Origin: Gammaproteobacteria bacterium | Lineage (GTDB): Bacteria > Pseudomonadota > Gammaproteobacteria > UBA6429 > Thiohalophilaceae | Reading direction: 5' to 3' | Assembly: GCA_024275115.1 (NCBI GenBank) | Contig: JAJRZT010000032.1 | Location: 1 to 64,000, forward strand | DNA length: 64,000 nt | In this document: positions 29,579 through 61,504 of the stretch, one piece after another | How the letters are laid out: every line of letters starts with the position of its first letter | Numbering within the stretch: the first letter of the stretch is position 1 | Made by a program: the position numbers and the translations under genes | The notes under the pieces: generated by a model | The model's input: only the letters and a program-made list of their open reading frames with translations | The model's database searches: none | What the model was told of the DNA's origin: nothing

Positions 29579-29596
29579 AACCTTTATATAAAGGTT
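29579..29596. repeat. 18-bp perfect palindrome at the end of the FHA gene
   Basis: AACCTTTATATAAAGGTT is its own reverse complement and overlaps the last codons and stop of the minus-strand FHA gene. It can form a hairpin but has no downstream T-tract, so an intrinsic terminator is doubtful. Confidence 0.5.
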
Positions 29597-30162
29597 AAGC
29601 GACGGCTAAAGCGTTTGTTCTTTTCACCGGGAGTTTCTTCTTTGTCGTCAGCATCAAGCAGGTTTTCAATCTGATGCCGGGTATCGGCCAGATCTTCCAC
29701 TTCATAACCATCCAGAGGCACATCACTAAAGGTGGACTGAGTTACAGGCTGAGCTTTCGCCAGGCGCTCCGTTTTAGCTTGAGCTCGGGCATGCATAAGG
29801 CCGGGTGCTTCATCAGTCGTAAAATGCGGTGTGATAGCTGCATCAAGATGAGAAGCTGCACCAAAAGAAAAGCGGAATTCATTTTGCCCGATATGAATAC
29901 GATCATTTTCTTCTAAACGATGGGCTGAGATTTTTTTGTTATTCACATAGATGTGGTTAGTGCTGTCGTTATCAATCAGAATGCAATCCACTCGGTCGGT
30001 GAGTTCGTCATGCATTAACTGAATAACAGCGTGTTTTTTACTGACAAATTCATCGTCCACGCTAATGTCATTATCCAATGCGCGTCCAATAGTGATTTCT
30101 TCACTATCAAGTGAAAATTTCACGCCAGGAACACCATTAGCATATTGAATTAGTATCGCCAC
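29584..30162 (-). CDS. FHA domain protein
   Basis: The 192-residue cytoplasmic protein has one FHA domain (about residues 5-95), which binds phosphothreonine. The key residues are present: R27 in TIGRALDND, S41 and H44 in SKKHA, and Asn in DSTNHIYVNN. The C-terminal half (about 110-192) is charged and probably disordered. It is monocistronic by appearance. Two Ser/Thr kinases in this window (37559 and 51515) are candidate partners. Confidence 0.85.
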   Translation of the reverse strand: MAILIQYANGVPGVKFSLDSEEITIGRALDNDISVDDEFVSKKHAVIQLMHDELTDRVDCILIDNDSTNHIYVNNKKISAHRLEENDRIHIGQNEFRFSFGAASHLDAAITPHFTTDEAPGLMHARAQAKTERLAKAQPVTQSTFSDVPLDGYEVEDLADTRHQIENLLDADDKEETPGEKNKRFSRRLTFI

Positions 30163-37067: not shown

Positions 37068-37187
37068 TTGTCTAAAAACTCGCTAAAATTGCCAACCAAG
37101 CAGAAAAAAGTACAACTATGGGTTCACCCCAGCGGGTTGGTGGTTGGCTCACTTTTTATCCGCCACAATAATGATGGGCAGGACTAA
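37068..37187 (+). pseudogene. 5' part of a split gene, ended by an in-frame TAA
   Basis: A TTG start at 37068 with an upstream AGGA site opens 39 codons that stop at TAA (37185-37187). The next gene continues in the same frame after only two sense codons (Ala-Ile). The visible peptide VQLWVHPSGLVVGSLFI aligns with LYCTIHMMDGTLVEGTI in the second half of the downstream ORF. The TAA therefore lies inside the first copy of a duplicated domain. This may be a nonsense mutation, a readthrough stop or a sequence error. Confidence 0.6.
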
Positions 37188-37193
37188 GCCATA

Positions 37194-37529
37194 TTGGATA
37201 TTCTGAATCGGAGCGAACCTTTTGTTGTTTTTCAGGTTGATACACCGAATGAAATCCGCTTTTATAACCGGCAGTCAATTATACGCATTGAATACAACGA
37301 TAAAGATGCGATTGCAGAATCGGCACAAACGCTTTATTGCACTATCCATATGATGGACGGCACTCTGGTTGAAGGAACAATAAAAGAAGCACTCCCACCC
37401 GAGCATGCGCGGTTATATGACTACTTAAACAAACAGGATAATCGTTTCCTGAAAATTTACGTTAATGATGATGAGATTTGTTTAATCAATAAATCCTATA
37501 TTAACCAGGTGACCTTACCCGACAATTAA
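37194..37529 (+). CDS. Hypothetical duplicated-domain protein, downstream part of the split gene
   Basis: This ORF has 111 codons with only a TTG available as start and a weak AGGA site 10 bases before it. It begins in the middle of domain copy 1 (LDILNRSEPFVVFQV, then IRFYNRQSIIRIEY). It contains all of copy 2 (about residues 45-108, ending in YDYLNKQDNRFLKIYV and EICLINKSYINQV). A free product would lack the first strands of copy 1. It precedes the HEAT-kinase gene by 29 bases and probably belongs to that operon. Function unknown; no catalytic motif is seen. Confidence 0.65.
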   Translation: MDILNRSEPFVVFQVDTPNEIRFYNRQSIIRIEYNDKDAIAESAQTLYCTIHMMDGTLVEGTIKEALPPEHARLYDYLNKQDNRFLKIYVNDDEICLINKSYINQVTLPDN

Positions 37530-37558: not shown

Positions 37559-39982
37559 ATGAGTTTGCTGCACGGCTACAAAACAAATAAAGCAATAGCA
37601 ACCATACTTTCGTCTAACTCTGCTTCATCACAGACGAAAGAGGCTGTCACTCGCCTGAAAAATATTGGCTCATCGGCCATACCAAAACTGATACAGGCAT
37701 TGGCCGAAACCGATCCACATTCACCGATTGAAAACATACTCATTTCAATGCTAACTAACTCAAGCTTGCCAGCTTATATCGAAGGCCTTGCCGGTGATGA
37801 TAAACGCATTATTTCAAGTGTAATGCGTATTCTAGGCACCACGGATACCTACGATGCTAACCGCCTGTTCGATTTATTCAGTGATCCCAATATACCAAAA
37901 AATGTTTTAGTACAAATACTCATTGCACAAAAGAAACGTTTAAATGCAAAAACGCTGATTGGTATTTTAGGACAAGCCGACAAAAGCGTTCATCAATTAA
38001 TATTTAAGGTATTAAATGAAATCGCCAATGAAAAAATTGTGCCTGACTTAATTCGCTATAGTAATAGTAAAGATTCAACTATTCGTACTTATGTTGCTGT
38101 TACTTTTGGAAAATTCAGTATGCCGGAAGTACGCGATACACTTTTAAAAATGATTGCCGATCCAAATAAAGAAGTTCGCCAGAGCGCATTAGACAGCATT
38201 GCAAAAATGCAAATACCCGTTAATTCCAAGCCCATATGTAACTTATTGAAAGACCCTGACTTAACCGTTCAAAGTAAAGCCATCGACACACTGATAAAAC
38301 TGGACGATGGCAATATTGTAAAATATCTTATTGATATTTTACAGGACGAATCTGAATACGTTCGCCGTGCGGCAGTTGAAGTACTGAATGAAGTCGGTAA
38401 TGTGAATGCCATAAAAGACTTATTAAATGCCCTGCGCGATAAAGACTGGTGGATTAAAGTTCGTGCTGCAGATGCATTAGGTAGTATTGGCGGCCCCAAA
38501 GTAGTTGAAGCCGTATTGCAGCTTATGAAAGATGAAGATGAATTCTTACGTAGAACTGCGGTAGAAATTTTGAATTCAGTTAATGATGACAGAGCCTTTA
38601 AATACCTTGTCGAAGCACTGGAAGACGAAGACTGGTGGGTACGCGAACGCGCTGCAGATGCACTGGCAAGTATGAACGATAAACGCGCCGTTGAACCTCT
38701 GGTTAAATTACTTAATCATAAAGGCGAATCTACCCAGGTTGCCCTTAAGGCTTTAACCCAGCTAAAAGACACCCGAGCAATCAAACCGTTAATCAGCAAA
38801 CTGCAGCAATGTGATGACTCAATAAAACATGACATTATGCATGCACTTGCCGAGTTAACCGATAAGCACCATGCAGAAGAAGTTGAAGGTGCGCTTACCG
38901 AGGTTATGCAACATCCAGATCAGGATGTTAAAACAGCTGCCACCAAAGCCATGCAGGTTATGCAGGCAAATATAAGCACGCAACCATCATCAACCGGACA
39001 GCAAAGTACTGGTAATGCTTCTATCCCGAATACTGAAATGCTGGACATTGATGCAACGGTTGCAAATATTAATCCATCCATACCAACTGCGCCCTCTACC
39101 CCCTCTGTTGGGGCATCAAGTAGCCCGATGAGATCCATTATCGATCCAAACGAACTTTTACCGGGACAGGTGCTGGACGAACGCTATCGAATTATCCGTA
39201 AAATTGGTAAAGGTGCATTTGGTGTTGTGGTTTTAGTAGAAGACCAGATGGTAAGCGAAAACATTGTGCTTAAATTTTTAAATCCACAGATGGCATCAGA
39301 CGAAACGGTTATTCAGCGTTTTATTCATGAACTTCGCTATGCGCGCCGAATTACCCATGAAAATGTGATTCGACTTTATGACTTTATTACCTTTGGGAAA
39401 TCCTATGCGATATCCATGGAGTACTTTGACAGCCATTCATTCTCTTTTGAGTTAAAAAGTACCAAGTCGTTAGACAAGAAACACGGTATCCAGATTTTTT
39501 GTGATATTTGCAGTGGTGTCAATGCAGCCCACAAGGTAGATGTTGTTCACCGCGATTTAAAACCGGCCAACATCCTTGTCGACGATTCCAAGCTCGTTAA
39601 AGTTGTGGACTTCGGACTAGCCGCCGCTGCCAGTACTGCCGACTCACGTATTACAAAAAGCGGCATACTCGTTGGCACGCCAACCTATATGGCACCGGAA
39701 CAAGTGCGGGGGCGCGCCATTGACATACGCACCGATATCTACAGTTTAGGTATCTTATTGTATGAAGCCTTTACCGGCAAACCGCCTTATAAAGGTGAAG
39801 ACCATATGGCAACCTTATTCCTGCATGTTGAAGGCAAGCCCATTCCTGCTATCGAAAAAGACACCGGTATGTCACAACCACTCAATGATATTATTATGCG
39901 AGCAATGCATGTTGACCCTTTAAAACGTTACCAAACCATTAATGAGTTACAGCAAGACTTACAAAGCGTGGTAATTGAATAA
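37559..39982 (+). CDS. HEAT-repeat / Ser-Thr protein kinase fusion
   Basis: The 807-residue cytoplasmic protein has an N-terminal HEAT array (about 20-465), including two near-identical units around DKDWWIKVRAADALGSIG and DEDWWVRERAADALASM. A Ser/Thr/Pro-rich linker (about 470-525) and a complete Hanks kinase domain follow. The kinase has the Gly loop GKGAFGVV (about 549), Lys in IVLKFL (about 571), HRDLKPANI (about 662), DFG (about 683) and GTPTYMAPEQ. No membrane segment is seen. Its stop directly abuts the pilT-like ATG, so the two are translationally coupled. The kinase should be active, with pilus-motor or FHA proteins as likely targets. Confidence 0.93.
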   Translation: MSLLHGYKTNKAIATILSSNSASSQTKEAVTRLKNIGSSAIPKLIQALAETDPHSPIENILISMLTNSSLPAYIEGLAGDDKRIISSVMRILGTTDTYDANRLFDLFSDPNIPKNVLVQILIAQKKRLNAKTLIGILGQADKSVHQLIFKVLNEIANEKIVPDLIRYSNSKDSTIRTYVAVTFGKFSMPEVRDTLLKMIADPNKEVRQSALDSIAKMQIPVNSKPICNLLKDPDLTVQSKAIDTLIKLDDGNIVKYLIDILQDESEYVRRAAVEVLNEVGNVNAIKDLLNALRDKDWWIKVRAADALGSIGGPKVVEAVLQLMKDEDEFLRRTAVEILNSVNDDRAFKYLVEALEDEDWWVRERAADALASMNDKRAVEPLVKLLNHKGESTQVALKALTQLKDTRAIKPLISKLQQCDDSIKHDIMHALAELTDKHHAEEVEGALTEVMQHPDQDVKTAATKAMQVMQANISTQPSSTGQQSTGNASIPNTEMLDIDATVANINPSIPTAPSTPSVGASSSPMRSIIDPNELLPGQVLDERYRIIRKIGKGAFGVVVLVEDQMVSENIVLKFLNPQMASDETVIQRFIHELRYARRITHENVIRLYDFITFGKSYAISMEYFDSHSFSFELKSTKSLDKKHGIQIFCDICSGVNAAHKVDVVHRDLKPANILVDDSKLVKVVDFGLAAAASTADSRITKSGILVGTPTYMAPEQVRGRAIDIRTDIYSLGILLYEAFTGKPPYKGEDHMATLFLHVEGKPIPAIEKDTGMSQPLNDIIMRAMHVDPLKRYQTINELQQDLQSVVIE

Positions 39983-41077
39983 ATGTCCAGAATTAATGCC
40001 TTTCTGAAATTAGGACGAGAGCAAGGTTGTTCCGATATTCATTTATCGGTTGGCCTGCCTCCGCTTATTCGCATGCACGGTGAACTCTCACCCATTAAAT
40101 ATCGGGACTTAACCAGTGATGAACTCGAGTCACTGGTGAATGAAATTCTAGATGATGAACAGCGCGCCTTGTTTAACCAGGGGCATGATGTGGATTTTTC
40201 GTATGAACATGAAGAAGTTGGTCGTTTCCGGGTGAATTTATACCGTAAAATTTCCGGTATTGGTGCTGCATTCAGAATCATTGCACCACGTATTCCAACT
40301 TTTCAGGAATTAGGTCTGCCCGCCATACTCACTAAATTCCTGTTGCATAATCAGGGAATGGTTCTGGTAACCGGCGCCACCGGCACCGGTAAGTCAACCA
40401 CACTCGCCACCATGATTGACTGGCTTAACCACAACCGTCGGCTGAATATTATTACTCTGGAAGACCCCATCGAATATGTGCATAAAAGTGACAAGGCGCT
40501 TGTTATACAACGAAATGTTGGCACACACGTTGATACCTTTGCCAATGGTTTACGCGCTGCACTACGCGAAGATCCCGATGTGATATTAGTCGGCGAGCTG
40601 CGCGACCCCGAAACCATTTCAATGGCAATGACCGCCGCAGAAACCGGCCATCTGGTATTAGGCACACTGCATACAACATCGGCCGTTAAAACCATTGACC
40701 GGATTATTGATGCCATGCCAACCGAACAAAAATCACTAACTGCCAGCTTTCTAGCACAACATTTACTTGGTGTAGTGAGCCAGAAGTTACTGCGCTCTGC
40801 CGATGGAAGAAACCGCAAAGCCATTCTTGAAATTATGTTTAACACATCGGGAATGGCGAACCTTATTTTAAACAGGAAAGTATTCCAAATCCCTTCCATA
40901 CTGCAAACAGGAAGAGAACAGGGAATGCAATTAATGGATCAGGCCTTGCTCGATGCGGTTAAAAATAAAGAGATTGATCCGGATGATGCCTATGTACACG
41001 CAACCGACAAAAAATTATTTCAGCGTTATGTCACCGACCCTGATCTCCTTCCACAAGTTAACCTTGCAATAAGTTAA
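39983..41077 (+). CDS. pilT: PilT-family retraction ATPase (first copy, divergent)
   Basis: The 364-residue hexameric secretion ATPase has Walker A GATGTGKST (residues 131-139), Asp box ITLEDPIEYVH, Walker B DPDVILVGELRD and His box GHLVLGTLHTTSA. The normal PilT C-terminal motif AIRNLIRE, needed for retraction in Pseudomonas, is replaced by GMANLILN. The motor may therefore be specialised or regulated differently. It starts directly after the kinase stop and is followed at 13 bases by a second PilT-like gene. It may not be the main PilT of the cell, which could lie elsewhere. Confidence 0.88.
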   Translation: MSRINAFLKLGREQGCSDIHLSVGLPPLIRMHGELSPIKYRDLTSDELESLVNEILDDEQRALFNQGHDVDFSYEHEEVGRFRVNLYRKISGIGAAFRIIAPRIPTFQELGLPAILTKFLLHNQGMVLVTGATGTGKSTTLATMIDWLNHNRRLNIITLEDPIEYVHKSDKALVIQRNVGTHVDTFANGLRAALREDPDVILVGELRDPETISMAMTAAETGHLVLGTLHTTSAVKTIDRIIDAMPTEQKSLTASFLAQHLLGVVSQKLLRSADGRNRKAILEIMFNTSGMANLILNRKVFQIPSILQTGREQGMQLMDQALLDAVKNKEIDPDDAYVHATDKKLFQRYVTDPDLLPQVNLAIS

Positions 41078-41090
41078 CCGAGAAATTAAT

Positions 41091-42200
41091 ATGAACCGTG
41101 TCGATGCCTTTTTAGATCTTGTTGTAAAACAAAAGGGTTCCGACCTGCATCTTATTGCAGGCAACCCCCCACGGCTGCGCTTACACGGTGAGACGCATAC
41201 GGTTAAATATCGTGAGTTATCTTCAAAAGAAACACGCGAATTATTATTTGAAATAATGACTACCGAACAACGTGAGGAATATACAAAGAAACAGGGGCTG
41301 GATTTTTCCTACGATGTTCCCGGCTTATCACGCTTCAGGGTTAACGCCTTTGAACACTTAAATGGAACCGGTATTGTATTTCGAGTTATCCCAAGCGACA
41401 TACAATCGCTGCAACAGCTTGGGCTGCCCCCCATTCTGAAAAATCTTGCCCGACAGCGAAAAGGGCTTATCCTTGTAACCGGCCCAACCGGTTCTGGTAA
41501 ATCAACAACCCTTGCAGCTATGATTGATTTTATAAACAACCAGCGCAGAGGACACATCCTTACCATTGAAGATCCAGTCGAATTTTTACATACCAATAAA
41601 AAATGTCTGGTAAGTCAGCGGGAAATTGGCAGCCATACCCGAAACTTTGCATCGGCACTGCATTCTGCATTACGCGAAGATCCCGATGTTATTCTTGTTG
41701 GCGAAATGCGCGACCTTGAAACGATTCACCTTGCCTTAACTGCAGCAGAAATGGGTATTCTTGTAATGGCAACATTGCACACATCCAGTGCTGCCAGTTC
41801 TATCGAGCGGATTATTAATGCCTTCCCCCCTGGCGAAGAACCGTATGTTCGTACCATGTTATCAACCTCACTCTGTGGTGTTATTTCACAGCAACTTGTT
41901 CGTACTGCAGATAATCGAAGTCGCATTGCCGCAATCGAAATCATGATAAATAATGCCGCTGTTTCCAATATTATTCGTGAAGGAAAAACCGAACAACTCG
42001 ACAATGTGATTCAGGGTGGTGCCATGCAAGGAATGCAATTAATGGATACCGCACTAAAACGGCTTGTTGAGGCGAAAAAGATAAGTGGTGAACAGGCTTT
42101 CTTGACAGCGCGTAATAAAGATGACTTTATCCTGCTGCGAGATGAAAGTGAAGTCGAGAAAGAAGAACAAAGTATCACTTCAACAGATTCTATTAACTAA
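41091..42200 (+). CDS. pilU: PilT/PilU-family ATPase (second copy)
   Basis: The 369-residue protein has Walker A GPTGSGKST (about 129-137), Walker B DPDVILVGEMRD, and a C-terminal AVSNIIRE segment close to the PilT consensus AIRNLIRE. A Glu/Ser-rich tail follows residue 345, as in PilU. In known systems PilU works on the same pilus as PilT and depends on it. It lies 13 bases after the first ATPase gene and 23 before the FHA gene. Confidence 0.88.
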   Translation: MNRVDAFLDLVVKQKGSDLHLIAGNPPRLRLHGETHTVKYRELSSKETRELLFEIMTTEQREEYTKKQGLDFSYDVPGLSRFRVNAFEHLNGTGIVFRVIPSDIQSLQQLGLPPILKNLARQRKGLILVTGPTGSGKSTTLAAMIDFINNQRRGHILTIEDPVEFLHTNKKCLVSQREIGSHTRNFASALHSALREDPDVILVGEMRDLETIHLALTAAEMGILVMATLHTSSAASSIERIINAFPPGEEPYVRTMLSTSLCGVISQQLVRTADNRSRIAAIEIMINNAAVSNIIREGKTEQLDNVIQGGAMQGMQLMDTALKRLVEAKKISGEQAFLTARNKDDFILLRDESEVEKEEQSITSTDSIN

Positions 42201-42223
42201 CATACTAATGAACAGGTAATAAA

Positions 42224-42883
42224 ATGGCCAAATTAATTTTAACACTGGATGGCGCTGTAATACGGGAATACAGTATCGATAAAGACAGCATTAGCATTGG
42301 TAGAAAACATGGTAATGATATTCAACTTAATGACTTAACCATTAGTGGACGGCATTCTCTTATCACTAAAGTCGGCGATAATGTTTTTATTGATGACCTT
42401 GGCAGCACCAATGGCAGTTTACTGAATGGTGCGCGCGTTGCAAAATCTAAACTCCAGCACAGTGATGTTATCCAGATAGGCAATTACCAGTTCACCTTCT
42501 TTTCTCAGGATGAAGAAGATTATGAGCCTACTATGTTTTTACGTGCAGAAATTGAAGACACTAAAATAATTGATACCAAACAAAAATCAACCACCGATAA
42601 TACCGGCGCCAAACTAGGTGCGGTTAAAGTACTCAGTGGGCCACTGAAAGGGAAAGTTCTGGAGCTGAGAAAGCCATTTAATACATTAGGCTTTAATGGA
42701 TCAAAAATGGCGATTATCGCACGCAACTCAACCAACTACACGATTACTGCAATTAAAAACGAAGACTCAATTAATATTGCCATGGTCAATGGCCGTGATA
42801 TATCAACAGATGCATTAGAACTAAAAGAGCACGATATTATTGAGCTGGCCAATACTCAAATTGAGTTTATTTTTAGAGACTAA
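42224..42883 (+). CDS. Double FHA-domain protein
   Basis: The 219-residue protein has an N-terminal canonical FHA domain with R27 (SIGRKHG), S41 and H44 (SGRHS) and N63 (GSTNGS), all needed for phosphothreonine binding. A second FHA-like fold (about 133-219) has no such residues and may be structural. It is the last gene of the kinase-pilT-pilU operon, so it is a natural reader of the phosphorylation made by the HEAT kinase. It converges on the RND gene 17 bases away. Confidence 0.9.
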   Translation: MAKLILTLDGAVIREYSIDKDSISIGRKHGNDIQLNDLTISGRHSLITKVGDNVFIDDLGSTNGSLLNGARVAKSKLQHSDVIQIGNYQFTFFSQDEEDYEPTMFLRAEIEDTKIIDTKQKSTTDNTGAKLGAVKVLSGPLKGKVLELRKPFNTLGFNGSKMAIIARNSTNYTITAIKNEDSINIAMVNGRDISTDALELKEHDIIELANTQIEFIFRD

Positions 42884-51514: not shown

Positions 51515-54019
51515 ATGACAGCCAAAAATAAACAAACCACCGCCAGCCACGTTGCATCAGTCATCAGTATACCCGGCTACGAAATAAAGGATTTACTCGG
51601 CCGTGGCGGTATGGCAATGGTATACCTTGCAATACAGGAAAGCATTAGCCGGAAAGTTGCGCTTAAAGTTCTGGCGCCCGACCACACTGATGAAACATTT
51701 TCTGAGCGTTTTCTGCGCGAAGCACGCATTGCAAGTCAGCTTTCTCACCCGAATATTATTACCATCTATGATGCCGGTATTCATAATGGTATTCACTATA
51801 TGTCGATGGAGTACATAAAAGGTAAAAATTTTAATGAAGCACGTGACCTGTTAAGTCGCAAACAAAAAGTTATCATCATTAAACAAATAGCCGATGCGCT
51901 CGACTTTGCAGCAAAAAAGGGTTTTGTACATCGAGATATTAAACCCGAGAATATTTTATTGCATCAGGATGGTCGAGCCATTTTAACCGACTTTGGTATA
52001 GCCCGAACCAATGACGTATCAAAAGGCTTGACCGAAACCGGAAAAATACTCGGCACGCCCTATTTTATGAGCCCGGAACAAACCAAAGGCTTGCAAATCG
52101 ATCACCGTACCGACATATACAGCCTCGGTGTTGTATTATTTCAGGCACTCGCCGGTTATGTTCCCTACGATGGCCCATCACTCGTTGCAATTTGTATTAA
52201 ACATTTGTCCGATCCGATTCCGCAACTACCTAAAGGTCTGGAAATATTTCAACCCATTATTAATATCTGCCTGTCAAAAAAACCAGAGCATCGTTACCAG
52301 CATGCATCTGAACTGGTGAATGCGTTAAACAAAATCACCGATGCGCAGCTCGATGCTATTGATGCAAAGGCTATCGCCTTTAAGAAGGCAGGGCAGGATC
52401 ATTATGCCGCAACGATGGCTGAGCAACAAATAGATCACCAAAAGATAGCTAAACCAAAAAATCGTAAATCCGTAAGCAGGGCTGTCGATACATCACCAAA
52501 ATCTTACAAGCGAAAGGACACTCCGTCTCTTATTGCAGAGTCAGATGATTTTAAAAACCTAAATCGACGAAAAAGCCGACTCCTTATATTATTACTTATT
52601 TTATTTTTTGCCGCCGGTTATTATAAGAAATCGGAATTGCTCATCATATGGAAACAAAAAGCTGAACCGCTTGTAAAAAAATACCTACCGCCTGAAATAA
52701 AAGAATATGTATATCCCACAGTAAAAATACAGCAAGAACCTGAAAAACAAAAACCGATAAAAGCTATTTTAACTACTGAAGAACTTGAAAATAAAAAGAT
52801 ACGACAACTTAAATCTTCACTCGATAAAATACCCGGCAATGCTGTTGAACTCGCAAACATCTACAATGAAAAGCTTATTAAAAACCTGGGAAATGAAGAA
52901 ATCCAGGCGACAATAGTTGAATTAAAACAATGGTATCTAAACAGACTAAAGAGCTTAATCGTAAAAAAAGATTTTGTATCTGCAAATAAAACCATTAATG
53001 AAGTGAAATCACTGTACCCATCCATTAATGAAGATACCAATTTTATTACGCTAACAAAAAAACTAGCTCTAAGTACTCTCAACGAACCTCATTTACAAAA
53101 GTCACGCGTTTATTTTGCGGTTAATGCATTAAATGAACCCGAGGGTGCAAATGCACTCGAAGAACTAAGAATCGTATTAAGCAACGAGCCAGATAACGCC
53201 GAAGCATTGCAAGGGTTAGAACGGATTGCGACTCATTTTAAAAACAAAGCACTAAATGAACTACAGAAGAAAGCCTACTTCAAAGCATTGAAGTCAGCAA
53301 ACTCAGGGCTACAGTCTCGGCACACAGATCCTGAATTACTGCAATTACAGGATAAAATAAAAAGCTTAATCAACAACAAAAATCAAATCAGTAATCTATT
53401 AATAAAGGCCGAGAAAAAAGCACAGAAAGGCTTACTAACAAGCCCCAAAGGAAATAGCGCTTACGACTTATACAAAAGTATTTTATCCATCGAACCTGAT
53501 AACACACAGGCTCAAACAGGATTAGCAAAAATACAAAAACAAATACTACGCAAAGCACATACAGCAACCGTACAAAATAAATTCCGTGAAGCAGCGACTA
53601 TTCTGAATAATGCACAAAGTTTATTCCCAAATAACAAGAAGATAAAAACTGCACAAAGAAACCTGCAAAAGGAAATGGATGCCGTATTGCCCATTGTGCC
53701 AAAGATAAAAGTTAGCAGTACACCTTTTTCTGAAATAACAGATACAACACTGCAAAAAATTAAAATTGGCCAGTTTCTTTATGCTGGCTTCGAATATAAA
53801 AATTTCACACAAAACAATACGGAGCTAACCGTCAATGTTTATAATGGCACAACGCCAAAACTAATAATCCAGAAAAAAATAGTTCTGGTGAATAATAAGG
53901 GGAAACATTTTTTCACCATACAGCTCCCAAAAACAGGCATTACAAATGGCAATTATAGTATTGAATTATTATTTGGAAAATCCAGATTAATAAAATTAAA
54001 TCTGTTTGGTGTGCATTAG
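51515..54019 (+). CDS. Membrane-anchored Ser/Thr protein kinase with TPR-like C-terminal region
   Basis: The 834-residue protein has an N-terminal Hanks kinase domain (about 22-275) and a basic linker. One membrane helix spans about 355-371, and a long probably periplasmic part (about 372-834) has TPR-like helical repeats and a small beta-rich C-terminal domain. Kinase residues are intact: GRGGMAMV (29-36), K51, HRDIKPENI (H139), DFG (D159) and GTPYFMSPEQ. The layout is PknB-like with an external sensor region. It is monocistronic by appearance. Confidence 0.92.
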   Translation: MTAKNKQTTASHVASVISIPGYEIKDLLGRGGMAMVYLAIQESISRKVALKVLAPDHTDETFSERFLREARIASQLSHPNIITIYDAGIHNGIHYMSMEYIKGKNFNEARDLLSRKQKVIIIKQIADALDFAAKKGFVHRDIKPENILLHQDGRAILTDFGIARTNDVSKGLTETGKILGTPYFMSPEQTKGLQIDHRTDIYSLGVVLFQALAGYVPYDGPSLVAICIKHLSDPIPQLPKGLEIFQPIINICLSKKPEHRYQHASELVNALNKITDAQLDAIDAKAIAFKKAGQDHYAATMAEQQIDHQKIAKPKNRKSVSRAVDTSPKSYKRKDTPSLIAESDDFKNLNRRKSRLLILLLILFFAAGYYKKSELLIIWKQKAEPLVKKYLPPEIKEYVYPTVKIQQEPEKQKPIKAILTTEELENKKIRQLKSSLDKIPGNAVELANIYNEKLIKNLGNEEIQATIVELKQWYLNRLKSLIVKKDFVSANKTINEVKSLYPSINEDTNFITLTKKLALSTLNEPHLQKSRVYFAVNALNEPEGANALEELRIVLSNEPDNAEALQGLERIATHFKNKALNELQKKAYFKALKSANSGLQSRHTDPELLQLQDKIKSLINNKNQISNLLIKAEKKAQKGLLTSPKGNSAYDLYKSILSIEPDNTQAQTGLAKIQKQILRKAHTATVQNKFREAATILNNAQSLFPNNKKIKTAQRNLQKEMDAVLPIVPKIKVSSTPFSEITDTTLQKIKIGQFLYAGFEYKNFTQNNTELTVNVYNGTTPKLIIQKKIVLVNNKGKHFFTIQLPKTGITNGNYSIELLFGKSRLIKLNLFGVH

Positions 54020-57519: not shown

Positions 57520-59982
57520 ATGGATATCCTCTTTACCGATAAAACTGGGCAACAATATCAACTCAACCGCAATCCAGCACGCCCATCTAATCTCATTCCT
57601 AAACCTAAAAACCAGCACCAGGCTTTGCAGTTCATCCAGAGGTTAAAAATCACCCAGCCTAAGCACTGGTCTTTGCTACACCGTGTACTTGAGCCCTCAT
57701 CCACTCCTATTACCAGCAAACACGCCATTCAGAAATGGCTTGCCACAGCATTGGTAAACCAACAGTGGTATCTACACCAATATAAAAAAGCGGCGGTTCA
57801 CTCGACCTTTGGCAGCAGCACAAAAACACAAACCGCCGGGCTAGGCCCCATGAATGCAGGCAAACCCATCAGTAGTGTAACGGCACCGGCCACAGAGCAA
57901 TCCGCCGATAATGAAACAGCCATCAGCGATACGAACCCGCCTAAAGTGAGTGATTCGGCCCAAACCGGCGCAGCACCATATAGCCAAACTGAAACGCGCG
58001 GCTGTCCCATCAGCATGGTTTCCGGTGAGGAATTACTGCCCATAGAAGATGCAACGTTGCCGGGGCCTATGCCCTTTGTCTGGAAGCGTGTTTATCGCAC
58101 AGGCCACCAACACGACAATGGCCTGGGCCATGGCTGGACACACAGTGCAGGTGAAAAACTCGAACTCCAGGCACAAACCGTCAATATTATTGACGATGAA
58201 GGCCGCCACCTCAGCTTTAAACGCCCGCAAATAAACCAGCGCAGTAAACTCATTAATGAAGGCATGGATCTAGATTACGTTTCTGCCAACTGTTTTATTC
58301 TCAAAGCTAAAAAAAGCTGGGACAAGGTTTTTATACGACTCGGCGAAACCAACCAGTTTCGTTTAAGCCAGCTACGCCACCGCCTTTATCAACCACAAAA
58401 AAAAGGAATGTACGCACAGGCCGAACAGGGCTTTACGATTAACCTGCATTATGATGCGCATAATGCATTAATGAAGATTGAAGGTAACTGGGGTAAAAGT
58501 TTTTACCTGAAGCGCGATGCCAATGGCCGCATCACTGAGCTGACATTAAAAAATGAACAAACACAGGCAACAAAATGCGTGGCCGAATACGATTACAGCG
58601 AACAAGGTGACCTGATCGCACACCGTAACGCGGCAGCCAGCGGAGAAACCTACCGTTATAGCCATCATCTACTACAACAGCGAACACTGGCAACCGGATT
58701 TAATTACTATTATCAATGGGATTGTAACGACACATCAGCACGTTGTATCCATAACTGGGGGGACGATGGTATCTACGATTACCATTTTAAATGGGACCCA
58801 GATAACAATGCCAGCTGTGCCACCGACAGTCGTGGCTATACCACCACCTTTATCTATAATAACTTTGGCCAAATAGAACAGGAAATTGACCCCGAGGGTG
58901 GCATCCACCGTTACCAATACGATAATGGCCTTAAAGTGGCCTATACCAATCCCGAAGGCAACACAACGCACTATTTTTATGATGCCGACAATCAACCTGC
59001 CGGTTACCGTGATGCACTCGGCCACAGTGAAATCATCGGCTATTTTAAAGGCAAGCCAACGCGGTTTAAAGATAAGAGCGGTATCGGCTGGCAGCGTGAA
59101 TATAATGCGCGCGGCCTGCTAACAAAACATATCGATCCCTACGGCAAACAAACCGACTATCAATACAATACCAATGGTTTAATCAGCCAGCTAACGGATC
59201 CATTCGGGCATAAAACCCGTTATCACTGGAATCAACAAGGCCAGCTAGAAAAAATAATAGACAGCTCCGATAATGTTCAGCAATACAAATACGATGAATG
59301 GGGGCAGATAACCGAACAACATATTTTACTTAAAAAACAAACTCAAGCCAGCATCACAAAATATAGCTACTCAAAAACAGGCCAGCTAACAAAACGAACC
59401 GACCCCAATGGTGAGCAAACCCATTACCAATACAATAACAATAATCAATTAATTGAACATACCGATGCACAGGGGCGTAAAACACAATTTGAATACGATG
59501 GTTTATCACAAGTTGTTAAACGCACCCATGCCAACGGCCACACCTTACACTACCGTTACGACAAAGAACGCAACCTGAAAGAACTCATCAATGAAAACGG
59601 TGAACACTACCGTTTTGAATACGATGGGTGTGAACGGCTGGTAAAAGAAACCGGCTTCGATGGCCACAGCCAGCACTATAAATACAATAAAGCCGGGCAG
59701 CTCATCAAACACCTCGATGCGGGGCAAGTAATCACCGAGTTTGAACGCGATGCCCTTGGGCAAATGCTCACCAAAACCAGCTCGCACCGTATCAACAAAA
59801 CAGACAAACAAAAAAGCCGCTACCTCTACGATGCCAATGGTCGGTTAACCGAAACCTATAACGAACACCAGTACCTCACCTTTAAATACGACAAGTTTGG
59901 TAACCTGCTCAACGAACATCACTGTGACCTTAAAGCAAGCCAAACCCACGCCCCTCGACCGCATCCTGTCCAGCGCGGTTGA
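57520..59982 (+). CDS. rhs: Rhs-family protein, N-terminal and repeat part (frameshifted)
   Basis: The 820-codon frame has a non-PAAR N-terminus. It then has the Rhs entry motif GEELLPIEDATLPGPMPFVW (about 168-187) and many YD repeats such as YNTNGLISQLTDPFG. It ends in junk (THAPRPHPVQRG) because the correct continuation is in the next frame from about 59930. Rhs shells enclose a C-terminal toxin. The break near the end of the repeats would separate shell and toxin unless the ribosome shifts or the base call is wrong. Confidence 0.9.
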   Translation: MDILFTDKTGQQYQLNRNPARPSNLIPKPKNQHQALQFIQRLKITQPKHWSLLHRVLEPSSTPITSKHAIQKWLATALVNQQWYLHQYKKAAVHSTFGSSTKTQTAGLGPMNAGKPISSVTAPATEQSADNETAISDTNPPKVSDSAQTGAAPYSQTETRGCPISMVSGEELLPIEDATLPGPMPFVWKRVYRTGHQHDNGLGHGWTHSAGEKLELQAQTVNIIDDEGRHLSFKRPQINQRSKLINEGMDLDYVSANCFILKAKKSWDKVFIRLGETNQFRLSQLRHRLYQPQKKGMYAQAEQGFTINLHYDAHNALMKIEGNWGKSFYLKRDANGRITELTLKNEQTQATKCVAEYDYSEQGDLIAHRNAAASGETYRYSHHLLQQRTLATGFNYYYQWDCNDTSARCIHNWGDDGIYDYHFKWDPDNNASCATDSRGYTTTFIYNNFGQIEQEIDPEGGIHRYQYDNGLKVAYTNPEGNTTHYFYDADNQPAGYRDALGHSEIIGYFKGKPTRFKDKSGIGWQREYNARGLLTKHIDPYGKQTDYQYNTNGLISQLTDPFGHKTRYHWNQQGQLEKIIDSSDNVQQYKYDEWGQITEQHILLKKQTQASITKYSYSKTGQLTKRTDPNGEQTHYQYNNNNQLIEHTDAQGRKTQFEYDGLSQVVKRTHANGHTLHYRYDKERNLKELINENGEHYRFEYDGCERLVKETGFDGHSQHYKYNKAGQLIKHLDAGQVITEFERDALGQMLTKTSSHRINKTDKQKSRYLYDANGRLTETYNEHQYLTFKYDKFGNLLNEHHCDLKASQTHAPRPHPVQRG

Positions 59983-61504
59983 TATCGGCTACCACACACA
60001 ATGGCCAGGCATACGCACCGCCATTACCTTGCCCGATGGCCAACAAATCGAATACCAATACGACCAACTGCAACTCAAAGAAATTCAAGTCAACGGCAAC
60101 ATCATTACCCAAATTCAGCATGATGTGTTGGGGCGAGAAACCGATCGTCAGCAAGGGCAGCTCAACACCCATAGCGACTACGATCCCATGGGGCGCCTGG
60201 TTAAACAACAAGCGATTAATCAGGCAAGTAAACAATCGACCATTCAACGTGAGTACGGTTACGATCCGTTTAACAATTTAAACTATCTAAAAGACGGCCA
60301 GCACGAAACCCATTACCTCTATGATGAACTCAACCGCCTTAAAAAAGCCGTTCAAGATGGTCAAACCGAACAGTTCGACTTCGACCCTGCTGGTAATATC
60401 GTTGCCATTAGTGAACAAAGCGAGTCCCTCAAAAACAACGCCAACATCAAAGGCAACCGCCTCACCCTACAAGGCGACAAAAAGTTTAGCTACGACGAAC
60501 GCGGCAACTTAATAAAAGAAACACGCGGCAAAGGCGGCAAGCTCGTTACCACCTTTAGCTACAACCTGCAAAACCAGTTAACCGCCGTCACAAAAGAAGG
60601 CCAAACCACCCAGTATAAATACGACCCTCTCGGTCGCCGCTTCGAAAAAAGCGATAGCTTCGGCACCACCCGCTACCTCTGGGCAGAAAACCAGATGGTG
60701 CAGGAAACAAGAAACAACATAAAAAAAACCTACGTCTACGAGCCGAACAGCTTTAAACCCGTCGCGCTGGTACAAGACGAACAAATCTACCACTACCACC
60801 TCGACCACCTCGGCACCCCAAGAGAACTTACCAATAACGCCGGTGATATCGTCTGGAAAGTGCGCTACAAAACTTATGGCAATGTCGCGGTAAAAGAAGT
60901 CGATGAAATCGAAAACAACATTCGCTTTCAAGGCCAATACTTCGACGAAGAAAGTGGTTTACATTACAACCGCCATCGGTATTATAACCCCAGTAGCGGG
61001 CAGTTTATAAGCCAGGATCCGATTGGTTTATTGGGCGGTATCAATAATTACCAGTATGCGCCGAATCCGACGGGGTGGGTGGATCCGTTGGGGTTGAGTT
61101 GTAAGGAGGTAGATTTTTATGTTGGGTCAAATGAACAAGTTATTCCATCAACTGGTTACAGAGCTTTTGGTGGAGAATCTAATGTTAATGAAGCATTAAG
61201 TGGCACTATATCACCAAGAGATCCTACTTATATAACTTTTGATGATATTACGAATATGAATCCCGATGAAGCGAAAAGTTTTATGCAATTACCTCGATCT
61301 CCAACTCATGCAGTTGAGTTTGATACTTTACAGGTGATCGATGATATCAAAACGCCAGATGGAAAATGGAATACTAATGGCATTCCAGAACCTATAACTG
61401 AAACCTTCCCAGAGTGGGGAGCTGGTGGTGCAACGCAAGCAATCACTAATAAGCCTATAAAAATTGATTCATCAAAAATAGTTGAATTAGGGGTGAAAAG
61501 ATGA
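59897..61504 (+). CDS. rhs: Rhs-family protein, C-terminal core and variable toxin tip
   Basis: The 535-codon frame continues the Rhs repeats from about KPTPLDRILSS. The core ends with the hallmark DPIGLLGGINNYQYAPNP and WVDPLGL (about residue 400). The 130 residues after it are AT-rich and unrelated to the core. They start DFYVGSNEQVIPSTGYRAFGG and would be the toxin, autoproteolytically released in typical Rhs proteins. I do not recognise its activity. The ATG at 59897 is unlikely to be a real start, and this is better seen as the 3' part of the 57520 gene. Confidence 0.85.
   Translation: MVTCSTNITVTLKQAKPTPLDRILSSAVDIGYHTQWPGIRTAITLPDGQQIEYQYDQLQLKEIQVNGNIITQIQHDVLGRETDRQQGQLNTHSDYDPMGRLVKQQAINQASKQSTIQREYGYDPFNNLNYLKDGQHETHYLYDELNRLKKAVQDGQTEQFDFDPAGNIVAISEQSESLKNNANIKGNRLTLQGDKKFSYDERGNLIKETRGKGGKLVTTFSYNLQNQLTAVTKEGQTTQYKYDPLGRRFEKSDSFGTTRYLWAENQMVQETRNNIKKTYVYEPNSFKPVALVQDEQIYHYHLDHLGTPRELTNNAGDIVWKVRYKTYGNVAVKEVDEIENNIRFQGQYFDEESGLHYNRHRYYNPSSGQFISQDPIGLLGGINNYQYAPNPTGWVDPLGLSCKEVDFYVGSNEQVIPSTGYRAFGGESNVNEALSGTISPRDPTYITFDDITNMNPDEAKSFMQLPRSPTHAVEFDTLQVIDDIKTPDGKWNTNGIPEPITETFPEWGAGGATQAITNKPIKIDSSKIVELGVKR

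Follow-up and report, generated by a model that had tools for sequence, protein, structure and literature searches.

The 64,000-nucleotide window analyzed here, taken from one contig of a 2.5 Mb genome assembly of a gammaproteobacterium of the Thiohalophilaceae (G000; 83% complete, 115 contigs), contains four plus-strand genes arranged head to tail at positions 37559–42883, which encode a fusion of HEAT repeats with a Hanks-type Ser/Thr kinase (KIN), two PilT-family ATPases (PT1 and PT2) and an FHA-domain protein, with gaps of 0, 13 and 23 nucleotides (nt) between them. The invariant core of this arrangement is KIN-PT1-PT2, and the link of kinase and motor as a conserved unit is well supported. 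What was observed directly is which genes are present, how they are conserved and inherited together, the clades to which they belong and the intactness of their catalytic motifs. The best account, to which we assign a probability of roughly 0.5, is that these genes form an accessory retraction-motor module that stands alone, is gated by the kinase and serves the type IV pilus of the cell, with PknB/GarA-like docking where an FHA protein is present. More tentatively, and at well below even odds, PT1 and PT2 may constitute a second, phospho-gated retraction motor of type IV pilus systems that make up a conserved class, in which they would replace or supplement PilT/PilU under the control of the HEAT-repeat Hanks kinase. 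The features of the locus are as follows.

37068–37529, + strand: UP, a DUF6812-like gene placed first in the putative operon; about 155 amino acids in relatives, with an in-frame TAA here
37559–39982, + strand: KIN, HEAT-repeat/Hanks-type Ser/Thr kinase fusion, 807 amino acids
38309–38683, + strand: HEAT patch, KIN residues 251–375, from conservation over 78 KIN proteins
39185–39943, + strand: protein kinase domain, KIN residues 543–795, a Pkinase match with invariant catalytic residues
39644–39703, + strand: KIN activation loop SRITKSGILVGTPTYMAPEQ, residues 696–715, from alignment to PknB
39983–41077, + strand: PT1, PilT-clade ATPase by motifs and tree, directly after KIN (gap 0)
41091–42200, + strand: PT2, PilT-clade ATPase by motifs and tree, 13 nt after PT1
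42224–42883, + strand: FHA protein, 23 nt after PT2, with a canonical N-terminal FHA domain and a degenerate, predicted beta-rich C-terminal half
42524–42538, + strand: FHA linker motif EPTMF, residues 101–105, from alignment of 23 module FHA proteins

An initial annotation of this DNA had described an operon at 37559–42883, consisting of a HEAT/Hanks kinase fusion with all catalytic residues that abuts a PilT-family gene, a second PilT/PilU gene after 13 bases and a double-FHA protein after a further 23. The kinase–PilT junction was borne out (gap 0, with HEAT_2, Pkinase and TIGR01420 matches), as were the complete catalytic residues and the number, order and spacing of the four genes. PT2 is of the PilT family as described, but its identification as PilU was ruled out by the phylogenetic tree, and the FHA protein has one canonical FHA domain with its pocket residues rather than two, the C-terminal half being unmatched by Pfam. 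The proposed extent also missed the upstream gene UP (37068–37529), which travels with the operon in relatives. A promoter/terminator consensus scan of the operon gave matches no more numerous than in shuffled sequences; the co-transcription of UP-KIN-PT1-PT2-FHA as one operon, which we infer, therefore rests on gene spacing.

Eighty loci with a KIN relative were taken from the GTDB species set. PT1 and PT2 lie 3′ of KIN on the same strand in 75 of them, the other five stopping at contig edges, and the KIN-PT1-PT2 order is kept at 35–92% protein identity across phyla. In the window's family, the KIN stop and the PT1 start touch or overlap in nearly all loci, every contig of sufficient length shows the order KIN-PT1-PT2-FHA, and KIN occurs in 27 of the 37 genomes, one more of which has PT1-PT2-FHA at a contig edge. 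Carriers elsewhere include Woeseiaceae, isolates of Ectothiorhodospira (E. haloalkaliphila, E. marina, E. shaposhnikovii and E. mobilis) and Thioalkalivibrio (the cultured sp. XN8), as well as metagenome-assembled genomes of Eisenbacteria, Acidobacteria and Latescibacterota. The module was present in 51 genomes, from about 25 families, of an even class-wide sample of 369 Gammaproteobacteria; weak partial matches account for a small number of these (family f232). An even phylum-wide sample yielded 1/398, namely the window's own genome, which is taken to reflect a sample dominated by clades without the module; the counts for Acidobacteriota (1/149) and Latescibacterota (2/80) both include the known carrier. 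Accordingly, the gene-neighbourhood check that had been proposed against a one-genome association found the association to be broad and to span several phyla. Because the order recurs across phyla down to 35% protein identity, chance linkage was rejected. Explanations by passive linkage or by a defence cassette that is mobile are very improbable: PADLOC PD-T4-6 models do match KIN, but only in its kinase domain, on which ground the defence-island reading was rejected, and the module is single-copy and sits in a stable syntenic locus.

PT1 and PT2 score 428 and 466 bits, respectively, against TIGR01420 (curated cut-off, 319.1), their Walker A, Walker B, Asp box and His box are intact, and the nearest solved structure to both is PilT (3jvu/3jvv). 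In a maximum-likelihood tree built from 74 PilT-family proteins, PT1 and PT2 form separate clades across phyla, which join with a support of 99; their sister group is canonical PilT (support of 98 at the node uniting the three), and PilU proteins occupy a distinct clade with a support of 100 at its base. Within the PT1 clade and again within the PT2 clade, the Eisenbacteria and Latescibacterota proteins group on a separate branch, as expected of a jointly inherited pair. PT1 and PT2 resemble PilT/PilU of type IVa pili in family membership and nucleotide-handling motifs, but differ in constituting their own clades, in being encoded with a kinase and in being additional to canonical pilT and pilU, which module genomes also carry (in the window genome, as a separate pair at C55). 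Genomes with the module typically have at least four TIGR01420 genes, versus two in module-less complete genomes of the family (e.g., G004, G016, G035 and G036). In Ectothiorhodospira lacustris (L102:12396–13457), a single ATPase with PT1-type motifs in its first half and PT2-type motifs in its second half follows KIN; it looks like a hybrid that arose by recombination between PT1 and PT2, unless the assembly has collapsed here.

KIN matches the Pfam HEAT_2 repeats (E-value, 9.6e-83) and Pkinase (residues 543–795; 1.4e-52), and possesses the catalytic Lys, Glu, HRD, DFG and APE elements of a Hanks-type Ser/Thr kinase: K572, E591, HRD 664–666, DFG 684–686 and P713-E714 are invariant in 78/78 KIN proteins, the first residue of the APE motif being variable and left out of this count. 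In the activation loop, T699 aligns with T171 of PknB, and S701, which is S or T in relatives, aligns with T173, so KIN has the activation-loop threonine of PknB/GarA-type kinases; in PknB, these two sites are autophosphorylated and needed for activity (PMC6428115). Another threonine of the loop, T709 (GTPT; window 39683–39685), is found in 21/21 KIN loci with a downstream FHA gene versus 1/57 without, and L075, which is nested inside the FHA clade, has no FHA gene and a Q at this position; this correlation is a lead only, because the loci with a downstream FHA gene fall almost entirely into a single clade. Mean conservation over the 78 proteins is higher in HEAT residues 251–375 (0.63) than in the kinase domain (0.55). 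This patch, which contains SEYVRRAAVEVLN, DWWIKVRAADAL, DEFLRRTAVEILN and DWWVRERA, with the segments RRAAVEVLN, DWW..VRAAD and RRTAVEILN, is probably a binding surface for a conserved partner. A hydropathy scan of KIN revealed no evident membrane segment and a domain scan no sensor domain other than HEAT, as in a cytosolic-type kinase. A reverse flow of information has to be considered here, in which PT1 and PT2 would read the tension or retraction state of the pilus and signal through the HEAT repeats to the kinase and, by way of the FHA protein, on to other targets, in a form of surface sensing. A HEAT patch that is the best conserved part of a cytosolic kinase otherwise devoid of sensor domains would fit such a sensor-type contact, but no conserved target gene besides FHA and UP accompanies the module, and FHA is often absent; this direction of signalling is distinctly unlikely.

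The Pfam FHA domain of the fourth protein (residues 23–86; 8.2e-20) keeps the phosphothreonine-pocket residues R27, S41, H44 and N63 across the aligned module FHA proteins. In structure, it is matched best by GarA, FhaA and EmbR, and 6i2p, the entry for PknB-GarA, is among these matches. Neither a Pfam match nor a G-R / S-x-x-H / N signature was found in the C-terminal half, which is predicted to be a beta-rich domain not demonstrable as FHA. In the linker, E101, T103, M104 and F105 are invariant, T103 occurring in all 23 proteins aligned, and this residue is a candidate phosphothreonine. The EPTMF motif is presumably comparable to the N-terminal ETT motif of GarA. Window-like loci (20/80) have the FHA gene 3′ of PT2, sometimes in duplicate, as in the tandem copies of L076, L078, L079 and L083. 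In five loci, the gene lies upstream of KIN; these include loci of Eisenbacteria and Latescibacterota, in which its product ends in a hydrophobic tail. In four non-proteobacterial loci (L141, L143, L146 and L148), the upstream gene encodes a protein with such a tail at its C-terminus, possibly a membrane-tethered version, and with a similar E-x-T motif in the linker, which reads EGTTVLS in 3/4. Most Woeseiaceae-type loci have no adjacent FHA gene, and metG and rnf genes follow. Elsewhere in the window genome, a CHASE2-kinase, a PP2C phosphatase and two FHA genes are clustered (C34; L064:6145–10545); the first FHA protein of this cluster is 37% identical to that of the window and has the same two-part layout, but unlike the module, the cluster combines a CHASE2 kinase with PP2C and contains no ATPases.

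Of the 51 module genomes in the class-wide sample, 47 have PilQ, and the four without a PilQ match carry PilB-family ATPases, two of them above the PilB cut-off. In the window genome, PilQ is encoded at C14. Another secretin, next to a GspE-type ATPase at C74, matches PilQ weakly, and we read this secretin as MshL/MSHA-like. This co-occurrence is compatible with action on the type IV pilus and is no proof of it, and several observations weigh against a kinase-gated pilus motor. The association with PilQ carries little weight, since PilQ is common throughout the class (258 of the other 318 genomes). Module-less complete genomes of the family retain PilQ, PilT and PilU, from which it follows that the module is accessory and unneeded for pili. 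Among the recurrent neighbours identified, no pilin, PilC or PilMNOPQ genes adjoin the module. The AIRNLIRE residues that PilT retains are missing from the window PT1, which reads SGMANLILN (degenerate), and are partial in PT2 (AAVSNIIRE, with IRE retained). As for the FHA protein, the E-x-T linker motif also occurs in the CHASE2-kinase cluster and is not module-specific; with its presence in other phyla, it looks like a general linker feature and not a special one. Approximately two thirds of KIN loci are without an adjacent FHA gene, and the family as a whole does not pair its kinase genes with an FHA gene, as a PknB/GarA-type system would. The write-and-read pairing of kinase and FHA protein put forward in the initial annotation is therefore plausible but not core, since most relatives have KIN-PT1-PT2 without an adjacent FHA gene; the FHA part of the module is recurrent but dispensable.

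Some of these points would suit a different function, in which PT1 and PT2 are no longer pilus motors and have joined the HEAT-kinase in a signalling machine that is driven by ATPases and serves another envelope process. The module was never found beside pilus structural genes, its neighbourhoods are of housekeeping type (nlpC/pbp1b or apbC/metG/rnf), and in addition to the degenerate AIRNLIRE of PT1, PT2 reads GILV where PilT has GHLV. On the other hand, the four ATPase motifs are intact, the clade is sister to PilT, and the module genomes have PilQ or, in the remainder, PilB-family ATPases; we consider such a machine unlikely.

Under the accessory-motor reading, PT1 and PT2 would be a dedicated pair that arose by duplication of PilT and works beside ordinary PilT/PilU at the base of a type IV (or MSHA-type) pilus, with the HEAT-kinase as its constant partner and regulator. 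Through the 251–375 patch, the HEAT solenoid would hold a partner, for which PT1, PT2 and the pilus base are the likeliest candidates, and KIN would be switched on by autophosphorylation of the activation loop at T699/S701. Active KIN would then phosphorylate itself and its partner, whereupon the spare motor would engage or disengage. Where present, the FHA protein would dock on a phosphothreonine, most likely one of the KIN activation loop or one of the EPT*MF linker of the FHA protein itself, as in GarA-PknB, and act as an adaptor or brake that relays or dampens the kinase signal. UP would be a small accessory protein, and the C34 cluster might supply reversal of the PP2C type in trans. The kinase substrate, the binding partners, the pilus as target and the direction of the effect are all parts of this scheme that we infer.

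Among known systems, the PknB-GarA/OdhI pairs of actinobacteria are similar in that the KIN kinase domain is nearest to the PrkC/PknB type, the FHA fold is GarA-like and a T171-equivalent Thr is present; they differ in that KIN is fused to HEAT repeats, has no evident membrane segment and no PASTA domain, and in that the candidate Thr motif of the module is C-terminal to the FHA domain. The ArnA-ArnB-ArnC/D unit of Sulfolobus targets components of the archaellum and involves a vWA partner, and the ArnA/ArnC network, like PpkA-Fha and PknB-GarA, works in a manner similar to that proposed for the module; to our knowledge, this unit includes no retraction-type ATPase genes, and we know of no PilT-type ATPase in PpkA-Fha, PknB-GarA or ArnA/ArnC. 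The PpkA-PppA-Fha system likewise combines a Hanks-type kinase with an FHA protein, which control type VI secretion post-translationally (PMC6657622). Unlike that system, the module has PilT-type ATPases in place of type VI secretion genes and an operon phosphatase; a type VI secretion reading was rejected, as no structural genes of that system and no PppA were among the recurrent neighbours identified.

No description of the operon was found in the open literature, in agreement with the initial annotation, which knew of no system with this gene set; subscription journals and preprints were outside the scope of the search, and "undescribed" is provisional. Nor did any open-literature paper combine three of the terms PilT, HEAT repeat, FHA domain and Hanks-type. 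Reviews attribute pilus-motor control to cyclic di-GMP, PilZ/FimX and chemotaxis-type response regulators, and in the passages covered no Ser/Thr kinase acting on PilT is named (PMC11656802, PMC12288463). The Ser/Thr kinase SpkA is reported to be involved in Synechocystis motility, with no link to PilT there (PMC4390875). If PilT-type ATPases are co-inherited with a kinase in several phyla, motor control would gain a post-translational route, and some of the surplus PilT paralogues that lack an explanation would acquire a role; a phospho-gated motor, if true, would place eukaryote-like kinase control directly at the pilus motor.

The upstream translation is a 153-codon frame (37068–37529) cut once by TAA at 37185–37187. 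Relatives of the same genus have GAA at this position and an open frame, the rest of the window frame is well conserved, and the stop codon may be a recent nonsense mutation or an assembly error. An intact UP precedes KIN in 20 of the 22 window-type loci checked (exceptions, L054 and L058), likewise lies upstream of KIN in Ectothiorhodospira, and sits 3′ of PT2 in one Acidobacteria locus; on this sequence evidence, UP belongs to the operon as its fifth gene. DUF6812 matches are sub-threshold for most members, and no mention of DUF6812 was found in the open literature. The sequence resembles two repeats of one unit, and an AlphaFold model (pLDDT, 86) is small and mostly beta. A structure search with this model returned nothing at E ≤ 0.001, a PDB sequence search gave no match, and VIA-align detected only a weak, uninformative small-barrel likeness over approximately 50–60 residues (YaeO, Z 4.5; Hfq, Z 3.9).

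Outside the operon, the window encodes a second FHA protein (29584–30162) and a second Ser/Thr kinase (51515–54019), in which an N-terminal kinase is followed by a TPR-like part. An RHS-repeat protein at 57520–61504 is split across two overlapping frames.

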